Assembly (NCBI GenBank): GCA_025201365.1
Contig: JAIXMF010000014.1
Span: 372,001-436,000 of the forward strand
Length of the DNA: 64,000 nucleotides
Direction of reading: 5' to 3'
DNA from: Syncephalis plumigaleata
Taxonomy: Eukaryota; Zoopagomycota; Zoopagomycetes; Zoopagales; Piptocephalidaceae
Shown: in pieces, positions 6,797-61,767 of the stretch
How positions within the stretch are numbered: position 1 is the stretch's first letter
How the letters are laid out: each line of letters begins with the position of its first letter
The notes under the pieces: model-generated
Database searches by the model: none
Seen by the model: the letters and a program-made list of their open reading frames with translations, nothing else
What the model was told of the DNA's origin: nothing
Program-made: the position numbers and the translations under genes

Positions 6797-8725
6797 ATGA
6801 TGATGATGAACACTCGTCTTGTCGTCGCGGCGCTAGTCATGATTAGTGCTGCATCAGTAGTGTTGGCGGAACGTGTCAAAGTTGATTTGATAAATCCGGA
6901 TCCAATTCCTAAATTCGAGGTTGTTTCCCGTTCGTCGGCACTCCGTCAACAAAGTCGTAACTTCGCTGCAAATGGCAAGCCAGAGGATGTCGCCATAGCA
7001 TTCGCTCGACAACATCTAAAGGTCAATAATGGCGACTACGTTGTTAAAGACGCTTACTCAAGCAAGTCAACTGGCGTCACCCACGTATACCTTAAGCAGG
7101 TATTCCAAGGTGTCGAGATAGCCAACGGTGACATTTCCGTCAATGTCGATGCTAAAGGCACGATCATTGCCTATGGCGATAACTTCTACCGTAATGCCGA
7201 CGCATCCAAGCGCAAACTATGGGCCGGTCAATCCTCGTCACGTTTCGTCGAACCGAACAAGGCATTCGTGTCGCTAGCCAATCATATCGGCAGGCCAATT
7301 GAAGCCTCCAAGATTACCGTGTCATCCCGTACTAGTCTAGTTGGTAACAAGCCAGAATACGTGCTATCCGGTATTCCTTACGCAAAGGACGAGGTCATTG
7401 CCAAGCAGTCCTATATCCAAACAAGTGAAGGTGCTCTGGAGGCCACCTGGGAATTCTTCATCGATCTCGGTGAAAACTATTTCAATGCACATGTGCCAGC
7501 CGATGGTGGAAAACTTATTTCCATCAACGATTGGATTTCCGATGCCAGCTATAATGTGGTCAATTTCGAAGAATCCGACATTGGAACAGGTGGTCGTGTC
7601 GTATTAACCGATCCTGCCAACACTAAGGCATCTCCCAGGGGATGGCACGACTTTAATGGTGCCAATACGCGTACCACTCTTGGTAACAATGTCGAAGCGA
7701 TTGCTCCAGCCAATGCCCGACAAAGGACTACAGCCACACAGCCGATCTCTGCCAATCTGAAATTCGACTATCCTGTTGACCTTACCAAGGACCCAAGCAC
7801 TTATCGTGAGGCTGCTGTTACCAACTTGTTCTACATGAACAACATCATGCACGATGTATTCTATCAGTATGGTTTCGACGAAGCATCCGGCAACTTCCAG
7901 AACAACAACTACGGAAAAGGCGGTGTCGGTGGTGATCATGTCCTAGCTAATGCGCAAGATCCATCCGGCTACAATAACGCCAACTTCTACACGCCACCCG
8001 ATGGTCAGCGTCCGCGCATGCGCATGTATACATGGACAGTTACAAATCCACAACGCGATGGTGATTTCGAGAACGATATCATCGCTCACGAATACACACA
8101 CGGTATCTCTACCCGTTTGACCGGTGGGCCGGCCAACTCCAATTGTTTGGGTTCCGGTGAGGCAGGCGGTATGGGTGAAGGCTGGGGCGACTTTGTCGGT
8201 ATGTGGCTACGTCTCAAGAGGGGTGATAATCACGACAAGGCCATAACACTGGGCGATTACGTGAACACCAAGGGTATTCGCCGCTATCCATATAGCACTG
8301 ATATGAAGGTGAATCCAACCACTTACGGCTTAGTGTACACCAACGGATGGACTGAAGTTCATTCCATTGGTGAAATCTGGGCCAATATGCTATATCAAAT
8401 GTACTGGAACTTGGTCGACAAACTAGGATTCAACGAGGACAAATACTCGGCTGATCTTACCAAGGGTAATACGCTAGCTGCCAAACTGGTCATTGACGGT
8501 ATGAAACTGCAGCCATGCCGTCCGACATTTATTTCTGCTCGTGACGCCATTCTTCAAGCCGAGCAACAGAATACCGGTGGCAAGCACAAGTGTGAGATCT
8601 GGGCTGCCTTCGCTAAGCGCGGTCTCGGTGCGAAGGCTGAAACTAACGGTAGTTCAAAGGTCACTGAAGACTTTTCACTTCCTGCCGAATGCGGCGGAAC
8701 AGCCACACCAAGTCCAGGAGAGTAG
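6797..8725 (+). CDS. fungalysin-type secreted metalloprotease (family M36)
   Basis: This is an extracellular zinc endopeptidase of 642 residues in a single exon. The start gives four consecutive Met codons and a signal peptide ending near VVLAERV. Residues ~35-230 form the FTP/propeptide region (GVTHVYLKQVFQGVEIANGDISVNVD, typical of fungalysin). The mature domain contains the zinc-binding HEYTH at residues 431-435 and the third ligand Glu461 in GMGEGWGDF, followed by the conserved region ending CEIWAAFAKRGLG. Length agrees with M36 enzymes (~600-650). The propeptide is expected to inhibit the enzyme until it is removed. No break is seen. Such enzymes degrade external protein for nutrition or host invasion. 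The family is certain; the substrate is not known. Confidence 0.95.
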   Translation: MMMMNTRLVVAALVMISAASVVLAERVKVDLINPDPIPKFEVVSRSSALRQQSRNFAANGKPEDVAIAFARQHLKVNNGDYVVKDAYSSKSTGVTHVYLKQVFQGVEIANGDISVNVDAKGTIIAYGDNFYRNADASKRKLWAGQSSSRFVEPNKAFVSLANHIGRPIEASKITVSSRTSLVGNKPEYVLSGIPYAKDEVIAKQSYIQTSEGALEATWEFFIDLGENYFNAHVPADGGKLISINDWISDASYNVVNFEESDIGTGGRVVLTDPANTKASPRGWHDFNGANTRTTLGNNVEAIAPANARQRTTATQPISANLKFDYPVDLTKDPSTYREAAVTNLFYMNNIMHDVFYQYGFDEASGNFQNNNYGKGGVGGDHVLANAQDPSGYNNANFYTPPDGQRPRMRMYTWTVTNPQRDGDFENDIIAHEYTHGISTRLTGGPANSNCLGSGEAGGMGEGWGDFVGMWLRLKRGDNHDKAITLGDYVNTKGIRRYPYSTDMKVNPTTYGLVYTNGWTEVHSIGEIWANMLYQMYWNLVDKLGFNEDKYSADLTKGNTLAAKLVIDGMKLQPCRPTFISARDAILQAEQQNTGGKHKCEIWAAFAKRGLGAKAETNGSSKVTEDFSLPAECGGTATPSPGE

Positions 8726-57072: not shown

Positions 57073-57263
57073 CGACATATTTATTCAATTAATGAACCAG
57101 TCATTGCTTGATATTTATGTGATAGACCGCGAATGATCTTGTAGACATATTTCTTGGTCCAAGGAATAATGACTTGAATGGCATGGACACTAAAGGGTCT
57201 TGCATCAATCCATTCTTGACTTGAATACCTATAATATCTACTTGATGATGTCTTTGTCTTGCT
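57073..57263 (-). other. 3' UTR / last exon of the micro-exon gene
   Basis: The last acceptor (TTACAG, complement of 57264-57269) opens an exon starting AGCAAGACAAAGACATCATC. It is related to the 3' UTR of the paralogue (complement of about 61320-61428: AACAAGACAAGAGCACCATC...GGACCAAGAAATAT). Since both genes stop just before this shared block, I read it as 3' UTR; an alternative splice could make ~50 codons of it coding. Confidence 0.55.
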
Positions 57264-57315
57264 CTGTAATCATAATGGATTAGTATGGGTATGATTATTA
57301 TGGATTATTACTTAC

Positions 57316-60300
57316 TGCTTAATGACGGCTCTGTACAAGTAGGGCATGCCATAGTGTGATTAGTACATTTATATTACAATTGGAATGGTAGCTTACATTT
57401 TGCTATTGTACAAGAGTATATACGGATCATGTGTCATACTGTGATTAGTATGCCGTAGTTTACAATCGGGAAATGACTGCTTACCATCTGGCATACACAA
57501 ATATGCATCACACATACAGTTAGTACACGGTACACTATGGCCAGAATGTCAACTCACCCGCTGTTGTATACAAGCATGCATGAGTGGTGTGCCATATTCC
57601 CGTTAGTATCTCATACACGATGATTAAAGTGTTAACATACCTCCTATCAGTCACGAAGCATACGTCGATTGCATGTCACATATCACGATTAGTACCGCAT
57701 ACACTTCAATCGAGATGCTCACTTACATTCTACAATGAACGAGTATACGCGAATGGTGTGCCAGATTGTCATTAGTACATCCATTCATTATTATTGAGAC
57801 GTCAACTTACAATCTGTTATGCACAAACATATGTGGATCGCGCACAATGTTGTCATTAGTACATCAATGCATTACGATTAGAATATTGACTTACTGCCTA
57901 TCATGCATAAACATAGATTGGTTGCATGCCATATCATCATTAGTGCATCCATTCATTGTAGTAAGAAGTATAGGAACTTACTTGCTGGTAGATGTAATCA
58001 TACGCGGATCGAGGAGTTCAATATCATAATTAGTATATCCATGCATTGCAATCAGAATGGTAGCTTACGGTCTGTTATATCCAAGCATACGTGGATTATA
58101 TGCCATACTGTAATTAGTACGCCATGTATTATCATTGGAATGATGACTTACCTCCTGCCACAAATAAACATACGGTGATTGTGTGCCATACTACAATTAG
58201 TACATCCATACGTTGCAGTTCAAATGATGGCTTACCTTCTATTTACACATGTATACGTGAATCGTGCATCGTGTTGCTGTTAGTACCTTAGACAATGGTA
58301 AGCATTTTTCACTTACCACCTATTAGTCAAAAACATATGTAGATCAATTGTCGTATCGTAGTTAATACACCGTAGACAACAATCAGAATGATAACTTACG
58401 GCCTATCGTATCCATGCATACGTGGATCGTGTGTCACATGTCATAATTAATACATCATCGTGTATAGCTAGCATAATGGCTTACTTGCTATTACATACGA
58501 ACGTATGCGAATGTGCCATGTCATGATTAGTAACAACATAGTTTACGACCGGAACATTGACTTACTTCCTATCATACGGGAACAGAGTTGAATTGTATGT
58601 CATACTGCGATTAGTGCATACATACATTTAATCAGAATGACGACTTACTCTCTATCATACACAAGTATATCAGAATCATATGCCATAGGATGATTAATAC
58701 AGCGTAGATGAGGATTGGAAAGGTAACTTACAGCCTGTTATACGTAAACACAGGTGAATCACAGGTCATATTATAGTTAGTGCGGCGCATACTACAATCT
58801 GACTAATAACTTACAGCCTATCGAGTGCAAGCATACGCAAATTGCCAGTCGTATCGTAGTTAGTATAGCATAGATGACAATTGAAATAATAACTTACCCA
58901 CTATCGTATGAGAATATACGTGTACCATATGCCATAGCGTGATTAGCATACCATAGATGACGATTGGAATGATAACATACCTCCTATCATGTGCCATAGC
59001 GTGATTAGTATAGCTATATATTACGGTTAAAATGATGGCTTACAGGCTGATATATAAGAACGTATATGAATTGTGTGCCATAATATGATTAGTATATCAA
59101 TTCATAGTAGCCAGAATGACAACTTACGTTCTGTTATGCATAAGCATGTGTGAATCATGCGCCATAGTGTAATTAGTACGCCATGCGTTACGATAATGAC
59201 TTTGACTTACGACCTATCATACATAAACATACGTAATGCGTACGTCATAGCATAATTAGCACATCCATACATTAAAACGCGAATGATGACTTACTTCCTA
59301 TTATACGGAAACACGTATTAATCATGGATCGTATCGTTATTAATACATCGACACATTATGATAAAAAATAATAACTTACGCATTGCTATGCACAAGCACG
59401 TATAGATCGTGTGTTATAGGGTGGTTAGTACCTGATAAATTACAGCTAGAATGATTACTTACGCTCTATGATACGTAAACATACGTGAATCATGTGCCAT
59501 CTCGTAGTTAGTACGCCATGCATTACAATCCTAACGGTAACTTACGCCCTATCATACAGGAACATACGTAAAACATTTGCCACATTGCAATTAATATATA
59601 TCCATTCATTGCAATCATAGTAAAACTTACTTTCTATTATACAGGAATATATATGAATCGTGTGTTATACCGTAATTAGTACAACCACGCATTGCAATCA
59701 GAATGGTTACTTACACCCTACCATACAGGAACATATGCGGGCATGTGTCATATCGTAGTTAGTACCATTCAGTACAATTCGAATGATTACTTACGCCCTA
59801 TCGTAGACAAACGTACGTGGATCATGTACCATACCGTAGTTAGCACATCCATTCATTACGATCGGAAATATTAGCTCACCTTCTATTATACAGGAACATA
59901 TATGTAGGCCGTGTGCCAAATCGTAATTAATACATCGTACATTTTAGTCGAGACATTGACTTACGCACTATTACATGCGTTTACACAAATTGTACGCCAG
60001 ATGATAATGATTAGCACGGCATAAGTTGTAATTAGAGATATTGACTTACTTTCTATCACGTAAGAATGTATATGAGTTGCACGCCATAGTATAATTAGTA
60101 CGTCATACGTATGATTAGAAACATCAACTTACGCCCTATCGTAGACAAACGCATGTTAATCATGTGTCACTTACAATTAATACATCCATTTATTACGGTC
60201 AGAATAATGACTTACTTTCTATAATTCAGGAAAATTGTATGGATCGTGTCAAATTATAGTTAGTATACCATTTGTTACAGCCAAGATGGTAGCCTACTTT

Positions 60301-60488
60301 CTCTGGAAATGGTAGCCACATAGCATTTTGATTTATATTACTGTTAGCATAGCACATGCTATGGTCAATAGAATAGCTTACCATTAGCTAATAAATTAAT
60401 AGGTAGAATAAACATTGTAATGTGATTAGAAGATCAAACAATAGACTACGATTAGTACATCGGTTGACACGCCCGTGAGAAGACATAC
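57316..60488 (-). repeat. tandem array of ~35 intron-plus-codon cassettes (~84 bp each)
   Basis: On the minus strand the unit reads: donor GTAAGT/GTAAGC, about 25 bases, TACTAAT branch word, ~40-47 bases including ATATGGCAC and CACGTATGTTT-like blocks, acceptor GATAG/AACAG/AATAG, then exactly three bases, then the next donor. On the plus strand this appears as CTTAC-NNN-CTATC. Donor variants are GTATGT (57630, 58972), GTGAGT (57552), GTGAGC (59870) and GTAGGC (60292-60297). Spacing is mostly 79-88 bp with one short unit of ~61 bp near 59000. Two units have six bases instead of three (57397-57402, 59380-59385). The three-base positions vary freely while the splice words do not. Confidence 0.93.
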
Positions 60489-60582
60489 CACGACGTTCCA
60501 GGACGGGACTAGCTTCAACGGCGACCAGACTGGTGAGAGCGACAACGGCGACGGCAATAGCGAGAACGGTAGAGAACTTCAT
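57319..60582 (-). CDS. secreted small protein encoded by one-codon exons
   Basis: Exon 1 (60582-60489) encodes MKFSTVLAIAVAVVALTSLV and then AVEASPVLERR: signal peptide plus a basic Kex2-like site. Next come 60387-60382 (6 nt) and 60302-60298 (5 nt), which restore phase 0. Then come thirty-three 3-nt exons and one 6-nt exon from 60218-60216 to 57487-57485, then 57402-57397 (6 nt), and 57330-57316 (15 nt) with a TAA stop at 57321-57319. Read together there is no stop in ~40 codons: after RR the peptide starts ANEK, then KGKCKGGKGSQC, and ends ERMQN-SRH, 75 residues in total. The Ala codon split by intron 1 matches the Ala after RR in the neighbouring paralogue. About 39 introns for 75 codons. 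Exact ends of the first and last two exons are the least certain. Confidence 0.75.
60388..60488 (-). other. first intron of the micro-exon gene
   Basis: A 101-bp intron, donor GTATGT and acceptor TTAG, with two CTAAT branch-like words. It contains a half-cassette (GTACTAATCG at 60449-60460), so the repeat array seems to begin inside it. Confidence 0.6.
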
Positions 60583-60724: not shown

Positions 60725-60731
60725 ATTTATA
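60725..60731 (-). promoter_or_regulatory. TATA box of the micro-exon gene
   Basis: The complement reads GGCTATAAATCGAG, ~145 bp upstream of the start codon. The same GGCTATAAAT occurs upstream of the paralogue at 61909-61915, in a conserved promoter block. Confidence 0.6.
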
Positions 60732-61428: not shown

Positions 61429-61767
61429 CTATGGTTGACGTTGAAATGGGTTTTGAGGTCGACGTAAAAATTGGTTTTGAGGTGGGTTTTGAAGTCGAGT
61501 AAGTTTCTCATTTGCTTGCTGAAGCCAAATTACACTGTGACTGAGTTGCCATCCAAGGAAGTTTTTCTTTTGTGGATCATTTTCGGCGGCAATTTGGCGA
61601 TTAAAGTCGTTAATTTGTCCTTGAATTTTATTGATTTCGTTTTGAGTTTGCTGTATTTGCTCAGGTGTAGAAGCACGACGTTCCAGGACCGGACTAGCTT
61701 CAACGGCGACCAGACTGGCGACAGCGACAACGGCGACGATAATAGCGATGATGGCAGAGAACTTCAT
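61429..61767 (-). CDS. small secreted protein, single-exon paralogue of the micro-exon gene
   Basis: A 112-residue product in one exon. The signal peptide MKFSAIIAIIVAVVAVASLV then AVEASPVLERR is nearly identical to that of the gene at 57319-60582. The mature part is Gln/Asn-rich with a predicted amphipathic helix (QTQNEINKIQGQINDFNRQI) and a C-terminal repeat of Pro-Gln-Asn and Phe (NPPQNQFLRRPQNPFQRQP). No Cys in the mature protein. Promoter and 3' UTR are also shared with the neighbour. It shows that the array gene's coding part once existed, or can exist, without these introns. Function unknown; it is likely exported. Confidence 0.8.
   Translation of the reverse strand: MKFSAIIAIIVAVVAVASLVAVEASPVLERRASTPEQIQQTQNEINKIQGQINDFNRQIAAENDPQKKNFLGWQLSHSVIWLQQANEKLTRLQNPPQNQFLRRPQNPFQRQP

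Follow-up and report, generated by a model that had tools for sequence, protein, structure and literature searches.

Results

A probable gene in which most exons are single codons

The window analyzed in this study, a stretch of 64,000 nucleotides (nt) from the fungus Syncephalis plumigaleata (Zoopagomycota, Zoopagales, Piptocephalidaceae; contig JAIXMF010000014.1 of assembly GCA_025201365.1, positions 372,001 to 436,000), contains on its minus strand a locus that is very probably an intact protein gene in which the mature part is split into exons of one codon each. This focal gene runs from an ATG at 60582 to the end of a stop-bearing exon at 57316, and in the spliced model its 39 introns, with a mean length of about 80 nt (60–101 nt in the refined model), leave a precursor of 75 residues, MKFSTVLAIAVAVVALTSLVAVEASPVLERRANEKKGKCKGGKGSQCEVNPEWAAREQAVKETQAINERMQNSRH. 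Exon 1 is followed by 38 small exons, of which 33 are exactly 3 nt long, three are 6 nt, one is 5 nt, and the last coding exon is 15 nt. The splice model was made by our own gene finder, which is blind to the reading frame and was used in a plain and then in a refined version. A preliminary description of this DNA had proposed an array with 33 separations of exactly three bases and two of six bases, and about 39 introns for a 75-residue protein; the refined model agrees on the array (exons 4–38) and gives exactly 39 and 75. From the sequence, we strongly infer that the one-codon exons are spliced into the mRNA. The source assembly comprises 32.6 Mb in 383 contigs and represents one species.

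The longest chain of introns spaced by exactly 3 or 6 nt contained 37 introns in the focal region, compared with a maximum of three in 200 dinucleotide shuffles of that region made by our own routine. When both strands of the window were scanned, four other chains, each of three introns, were listed; neighbors within 3.5 kb are suppressed in this listing.

A second family in the same format matches an uninterrupted reading frame

The strongest test of coding is the homology of a second family to an uninterrupted reading frame. This family consists of L022, L045, and L048 (minus strand), in which the first exon encodes MESSADNNNN and no signal peptide is seen by eye; the three loci have 43, 42, and 42 three-base exons, respectively, with no stop triplet in any of them. 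In L022, 15 exons in a row, 13 of them 3 nt and two 6 nt long, with intervening introns of 57–111 nt, supply the residues WIHDYIVRIEKKTAKRR. The array-encoded part of L022 aligned with residues 15–66 of the public protein P0007 over 52 columns with 38% identity (pairwise E value 1e-8), and this score was reached by none of 5000 shuffled orders. L045 and L048 aligned with P0007 over 20 columns with 55% and 65% identity, and again none of 5000 shuffles reached the scores. Residues 1–111 of P0007 match C318:1455923-1456258 and C220:4122-4457 with 96% identity and no stop, and the frame of these genomic matches is open over 135 codons. Because the array-encoded L022 sequence aligns with an uninterrupted frame, the concatenated one-codon exons seem to give real protein sequence.

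A genome search with the spliced L022 product gave 31 matches: 25 covered the first exon only and six reached beyond it, four of the six being free of stops. One of these four, C223:1257193-1257420, covers L022 residues 7–83 with 39% identity and an E value of 1.5e-9, a score that includes the first exon. An L048-type peptide had one weak contiguous match of 23 residues (E value 0.04).

Stop triplets, reading frame, and cysteine order across the arrays

The window and 40 regions fetched at places matching P0001, an intronless paralog in the window (Table 1), formed the sample for the analyses below, second copies included. For stop and exon counts we used 18 loci, after ten array starts had been excluded as second copies or as truncated (L009, L010, L028, L017, L038, L021, L027, L014, L012, and L032); two of the excluded loci, L028 and L012, are clearly distinct from L030 and L011, with which they are paired. 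Training of the gene finder began with the focal introns and continued with its own predictions, and the model requires AG acceptors and GT or GC donors.

No stop triplet occurred among the 441 three-base exons of the 18 loci, frame ignored, versus 25 of the reversed triplets AAT, GAT, and AGT. The phase was 0 for 398 of these exons, 1 for 32, and 2 for 11 (all in L035), and about 13 stops would be expected among the 398 phase-0 triplets from column composition. Among internal exons before the stop, 480 of 500 were multiples of three; the other 20 were 2, 5, 11, or 14 nt long and were mostly the frame-resetting exon described below. Intron lengths modulo 3 left remainders of 2, 0, and 1 in 218, 166, and 151 cases. 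The spliced frame stayed open to a stop in the short array-closing exon in 24 of the 28 array genes. The claim that the phase-0 codons of the focal array read without a stop was thus borne out and extends to the 441 exons; within the focal array alone it is weak evidence, as 37 codons at about 5% each give 0.95^37, or about 0.15. The force of the coding case comes from the family, with its near-identical copies, many paralogous arrays, and intronless paralogs.

Exactly four cysteines are encoded by seven of the 18 arrays, and six of these seven spell C..CC..C, L031 being the exception. Under residue permutation the mean number with this pattern was 0.73, and six were reached with P ~2e-5, so the order of the one-codon exons seems to matter. 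The modelled array genes contain up to 50 introns, and up to 45 one-codon exons follow one another in L020.

Splice signals and public gene models

In the 18 loci, the donor was GTAAGT at 394 of 535 modelled sites, and the acceptors were TAG (390), CAG (120), and AAG (25). Across eight pairs of close copies, 23 of 3280 positions at donors, branch words, and acceptors differed, versus 271 of 12,877 elsewhere in the introns (Fisher p 5e-9). The divergence of the splice signals is thus one third of that of the other intron positions, with a slight bias toward intact sites possible since signals were annotated in one member per pair. The array introns have a 5' GT, a branch site, a 3' AG, and lower divergence at the signals, as expected of spliceosomal GT-AG introns. 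The pair L016/L044 is more distant and lies outside the eight-pair sum; its donors differed at 7 of 216 positions and its acceptors at 12 of 105. Intron 2 of L016 and L035 is a GC-AG intron with a GCAAGT donor, found in a subfamily with ARR in place of ERR, and the sequence of L044 at intron 2 is identical to theirs there.

The public protein P0003 agrees with the L020 array but departs from it at the start and at the last residue and lacks five residues. The gaps can be placed beside unusual donors (GTAGGT three times, GTAAAT, and GTAGAT), and P0003 does not skip at one further unusual donor, GTACGT. The match of P0004 to the L017 model is of a similar kind, with residues missing. The threading of P0003 through the array would support the splice signals. 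The public models P0006 and P0007 have other sequence ahead of the signal peptide.

Layout of the focal gene

The features of the focal gene are given in Table 1. Exon 1 encodes MKFSTVLAIAVAVVALTSLVAVEASPVLERR and ends with the first base of the codon that follows; a similar exon was found in paralogs. The preliminary description had placed upstream of the array a signal-peptide exon with a Kex2-like end and a TATA box in the promoter, and both were located: the exon ends in RR, the signal peptide and its dibasic end being judged by eye, and the 10-base core of the TATA region recurs in 24 of 37 family starts. Most of the modelled paralogs have a frame-resetting exon of 2 or 5 nt in the role of focal exon 3. 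The array introns are in phase 0 and 60–84 nt long, with a GTAAGT-like donor, a TACTAAY-like branch word, and a YAG acceptor; the branch word begins 45–51 nt from the acceptor in 34 of the 39 introns of the gene. Introns 3–38 are alike over much of their length (mean pairwise identity 61%, range 46–80%) and look like diverged repeats, not just introns with common signals. Tandem Repeats Finder called only one two-copy stretch in the array (60081–60118), presumably because the units are too diverged. After its stop, P0001 runs on with sequence that by eye resembles what follows 57264. The 5-nt exon and the intron in the 3' untranslated region (UTR) were additions to the preliminary description, as were the large family and the second family without a signal peptide in the same format. 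Elsewhere in the window, 6797–8725 is a single open reading frame (ORF) for a fungalysin (M36) metallopeptidase.

Table 1 Features of the focal gene and of its intronless paralog in the window
Feature	Position	Strand	Description
TATA box	60726..60731	minus	within CGGCTATAAA; 149 nt upstream of the ATG
Exon 1	60489..60582	minus	94 nt; signal peptide (by eye) ending LERR, Kex2-like; ends in phase 1
Intron 1	60388..60488	minus	101 nt; poor alignment to array introns
Exon 2	60382..60387	minus	6 nt, CTAATG
Exon 3	60298..60302	minus	5 nt, AGAAA; resets the frame to phase 0
Array, exons 4–38	57397..60218	minus	33 exons of 3 nt and two of 6 nt; spells KGKCKGGKGSQCEVNPEWAAREQAVKETQAINERMQN
Exon 39	57316..57330	minus	15 nt; SRH, TAA stop (57321–57319), then GCA
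3'UTR intron	57264..57315	minus	52 nt in the plain model; acceptor at 57238 in the refined model, giving 78 nt
Last exon, 3'UTR	57080..57263	minus	AATAAA at 57085–57080; by eye like the 3'UTR of P0001
P0001, intronless paralog	61429..61767	minus	112 amino acids; promoter, signal peptide, and 3'UTR of the focal type

Gene family and genome-wide extent

A search of the genome with P0001 gave at least 150 matches (150 scored of 164 candidates), most of which span the signal-peptide exon only. A pattern search of the sample found 37 signal-peptide starts, 28 of which lead into arrays. Of these starts, 35 were modelled (28 with an array and seven without); the others are P0001 and its L009 copy, neither of which has an intron. 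Three more regions with arrays, L039–L041, were missed by the start pattern. L009 (on C281) and L010 (on C178) are further copies of the focal locus with 99.7% and 98.3% identity, and focal exon 37 is ATG in the window versus GCG in L010, two changes within one codon.

The mature part of P0001 has no clear similarity by eye to that of the focal gene. The focal gene and the L009 copy of P0001 are 81.7% identical over 371 nt, having the promoter and signal-peptide exon in common, and because P0001 and the focal gene have these in common, a simple retrocopy would not explain P0001. A protein search with P0001 gave seven matches, all from S. plumigaleata. Among JGI and ENA sequences, P0021–P0030 have a similar signal peptide; P0021–P0025 and P0028 contain similar signal-peptide exons that seemingly read into the first intron, and P0026 and P0027 are intronless in appearance.

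The pattern WCTAAY-N(30-60)-AG-NNN-GTAAG had 2220 matches genome-wide (1139 + 1081) versus 400 when read backwards, and the same pattern with a 4-nt gap had 187 (92 + 95) versus 455 read backwards. The 3-nt pattern recovers 283 of the 441 modelled three-base exons, and a rough estimate for the assembly is about 3,000 one-codon exons, duplicates included. One L022 first-exon match, C1:1417567, lies just upstream of a cluster of pattern matches at C1:1411706-1416818.

Probable gain and loss of intron-plus-codon units

Close copies of arrays differ by whole units of an intron plus a codon. Relative to L028, L030 has one extra CTT unit and one GGT unit fewer, and L037 has two units more than L038; the flanking introns in these pairs are mostly 91–100% alike. 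Because such copies differ by whole units, the arrays probably evolve by shuffling single codons.

A profile built from 377 array introns was searched against the sample with E values up to 1e-3. Of its matches, 644 fell within modelled arrays, and the remaining 88 all lay in six loci with further arrays; no match outside arrays was found in the window and 40 regions at this threshold. Similar introns across many unrelated genes, the hallmark of introners, were thus not seen in this sample, and the array introns do not look like dispersed introners there. The contiguous homologs of array genes suggest either that introns entered contiguous genes or that some of these homologs are retrocopies.

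Discussion

The reading of the focal locus as a gene built of one-codon exons, made in the preliminary description, survives the stop count, the cysteine order, the conservation of splice signals, and the homology of the second family to an uninterrupted ORF. Several observations weigh against it. A search for contiguous relatives of the focal mature peptide found none, so the strongest test comes from the second family. The arrays are related to each other, so the counts are not independent, and the genome-wide comparison of gap lengths covered 3 and 4 nt only. L035 leaves the frame at one ambiguous acceptor, the L036 and L017 models overrun the array, and L032 is truncated by the contig end after its fourth intron; the choice of the first AG in AGAG was made a rule of the model after loci had left the frame (L035, L044, L016, and L046 were inspected). 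In the distant pair L016/L044 the branch words (53 of 250 positions different) were barely better kept than the rest of the introns (665 of 2262). The residue gaps of P0003 look like the threading of an ab initio gene finder, not RNA evidence.

Purifying selection on the codons was also sought in close copies and duplicated units and was not found. In the eight close pairs, exons differed at 23 of 726 sites versus 271 of 12,877 in the rest of the introns, and the signal-peptide exon differed at 11 of 752. Fifteen of the 23 exon differences lie in L030/L028 and L011/L012; in the other six pairs, exons (8 of 629) diverged at about the intron rate (172 of 11,468). We also compared pairs of units in which both flanking introns were each at most 12% different, the pairs not being independent. 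For duplicated units within one array, codons differed at 41.7% of bases versus 7.0% for introns (28 pairs), and all 16 differing codon pairs were non-synonymous, 12 of them coming from L044. Between loci, the values were 10.0% for codons versus 2.9% for introns (239 pairs), with 37 non-synonymous and 13 synonymous differences, some of which are in exon-2 triplets and not codons. Codon divergence above that of the introns fits diversifying selection or the exchange of codons between units.

This absence of codon conservation between close copies, together with the mutual similarity of the units (introns 3–38) and their gain and loss between copies, is what would be seen if the array were a non-coding minisatellite of intron-like units within one long intron, the mRNA joining the signal-peptide exon to the tail. 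We consider this very unlikely, in view of the lack of stops in 441 triplets, the C..CC..C order, the frame that stays open to a stop in the short end exon of 24 of 28 array genes, and the homology of second-family array residues to an uninterrupted ORF. We give even less credence to the idea of recursive splicing, in which a long intron would be removed piecewise with the 3-nt exons as stepping stones and the codons incidental: an acceptor and a donor 3 nt apart are near the layout of a recursive site, but recursive sites leave no exon sequence in the mRNA, and neither stop avoidance nor residue order would then be expected.

Two further alternatives accept the one-codon exons as real. The arrays may have arisen by repeated introner-like insertion into contiguous ORFs and not by duplication of intron-plus-codon units. 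Contiguous homologs of second-family array sequence exist, and introners, families of similar introns that multiply within one genome, are described from fungi in the excerpted text of two papers (PMC4457414, PMC9860276). However, the array-intron profile matched arrays alone in the window and the 40 regions, two close-copy pairs differ by whole units with the codon included, and retrocopying of spliced mRNA could instead account for the contiguous copies; we regard insertion as a possibility on the improbable side. The exons might also be optional, with variable in-frame skipping giving a pool of peptides per gene, as proposed for schistosome micro-exon genes (MEGs). Skipping of the 3-nt and 6-nt array exons keeps the frame, the public models P0003 and P0004 lack scattered residues, and excerpts on MEGs give a precedent for splice variation (PMC4350168). 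We consider this unlikely, since the gaps of P0003 can be placed at weak donors that an ab initio gene finder would miss, and the C..CC..C order points to the normal inclusion of most codons.

With the array read as a run of one-codon exons, the TATA promoter would drive a pre-mRNA of about 3.3 kb, from which the ordinary spliceosome would take out the 39 short introns by intron definition. The introns would be removed consecutively, because a 3-nt exon cannot hold two complexes simultaneously. Translation would give the 75-residue precursor, and removal of the signal peptide and cleavage after LERR by a Kex2-like enzyme would release a lysine-rich secreted peptide of 44 residues. The evolutionary unit would be an intron plus a codon, with units duplicated, lost, and diversified; because the units are in phase 0, each unit change would be an in-frame change of one residue. 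Such exon shuffling at single-codon resolution would operate in a large family of small secreted peptides. Members of Syncephalis parasitize Mucorales, and the peptides probably act on the host or on rival fungi. As a tentative generalization, which we think possible but short of probable, proteins of S. plumigaleata may be encoded as tandem intron-plus-codon repeats in at least two apparently unrelated families, one with and one without a signal peptide, with about three thousand one-codon exons in all. The similar introns would provide the homology for duplication, loss, and exchange of units, rearrangements would stay in frame and free of stops, and optional inclusion of codons may add variants.

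MEG exons are 6–36 nt long and encode several residues each, whereas the exons described here are 3 nt, and we know of no MEG with a run of dozens of 3-nt exons or with tandemly repeated intron-plus-codon units. In the focal model, 33 of the 39 coding exons are 3 nt in phase 0, so that most of the coding region lies in very small symmetrical exons. By description, this resembles the Schistosoma MEGs, for which the excerpted text reports secreted products, mostly very small symmetrical coding exons, and a high ratio of non-synonymous to synonymous substitution (dN/dS) in the mature part (PMC4350168). Our protein searches with P0001 and A1 returned only S. plumigaleata proteins and NCBI, JGI, or ENA proteins. 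The bicycle genes of aphids, a large, putatively effector-encoding family with many microexons and rapidly evolving proteins, are alike in family size and in microexon number; in the excerpts they have about 17 exons per gene on average and internal exons almost all in phase 2 (PMC9168663), unlike the up to 50 introns and the phase 0 found here (398 of 441 three-base exons). No CYC motif is present in the 75-residue focal product; six other arrays have C..CC..C.

Exons of 1–3 nt can be spliced in, as excerpts on a 1-nt microexon of plant APC11 and VPS55, whose flanking introns are likely removed consecutively (PMC8831610), and on a 3-bp microexon of Drosophila homothorax (PMC7392893) indicate. 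Those microexons are isolated, apart from one rice transcript with two adjacent ones (PMC8831610), whereas the runs here reach 45 (L020). Standard read aligners miss exons of this size (PMC8831610). Introners, as excerpted, are spread over many genes (PMC4457414, PMC9860276); the present introns were confined to arrays in the sample searched. The preliminary description knew of no gene with dozens of consecutive one-codon exons, and we likewise found no description of a gene family built in this way in the open PubMed Central literature, where, in the excerpts retrieved, S. plumigaleata is named only for the use of its genome in a binning analysis. We rate the format of these genes as categorically new; the splicing chemistry would be ordinary.

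If this reading is true, dozens of one-codon exons in a row, as the usual form of a large family, would move exon definition to a new lower limit and would raise the question of how the spliceosome keeps order and fidelity over 40–50 junctions three bases apart. Annotation can garble such genes, as P0003 and P0004, which are without residues of their arrays, illustrate, and similar genes may hide elsewhere, given the alike signal-peptide exons in JGI and ENA sequences. The family would provide a natural setting for testing exon shuffling, in which the modules exchanged would be single amino acids. The format may let proteins change one residue at a time, which stretches ideas of split genes, and if the more general reading of tandem intron-plus-codon repeats also holds, the introns of these genes would be a device that makes their peptides evolvable.

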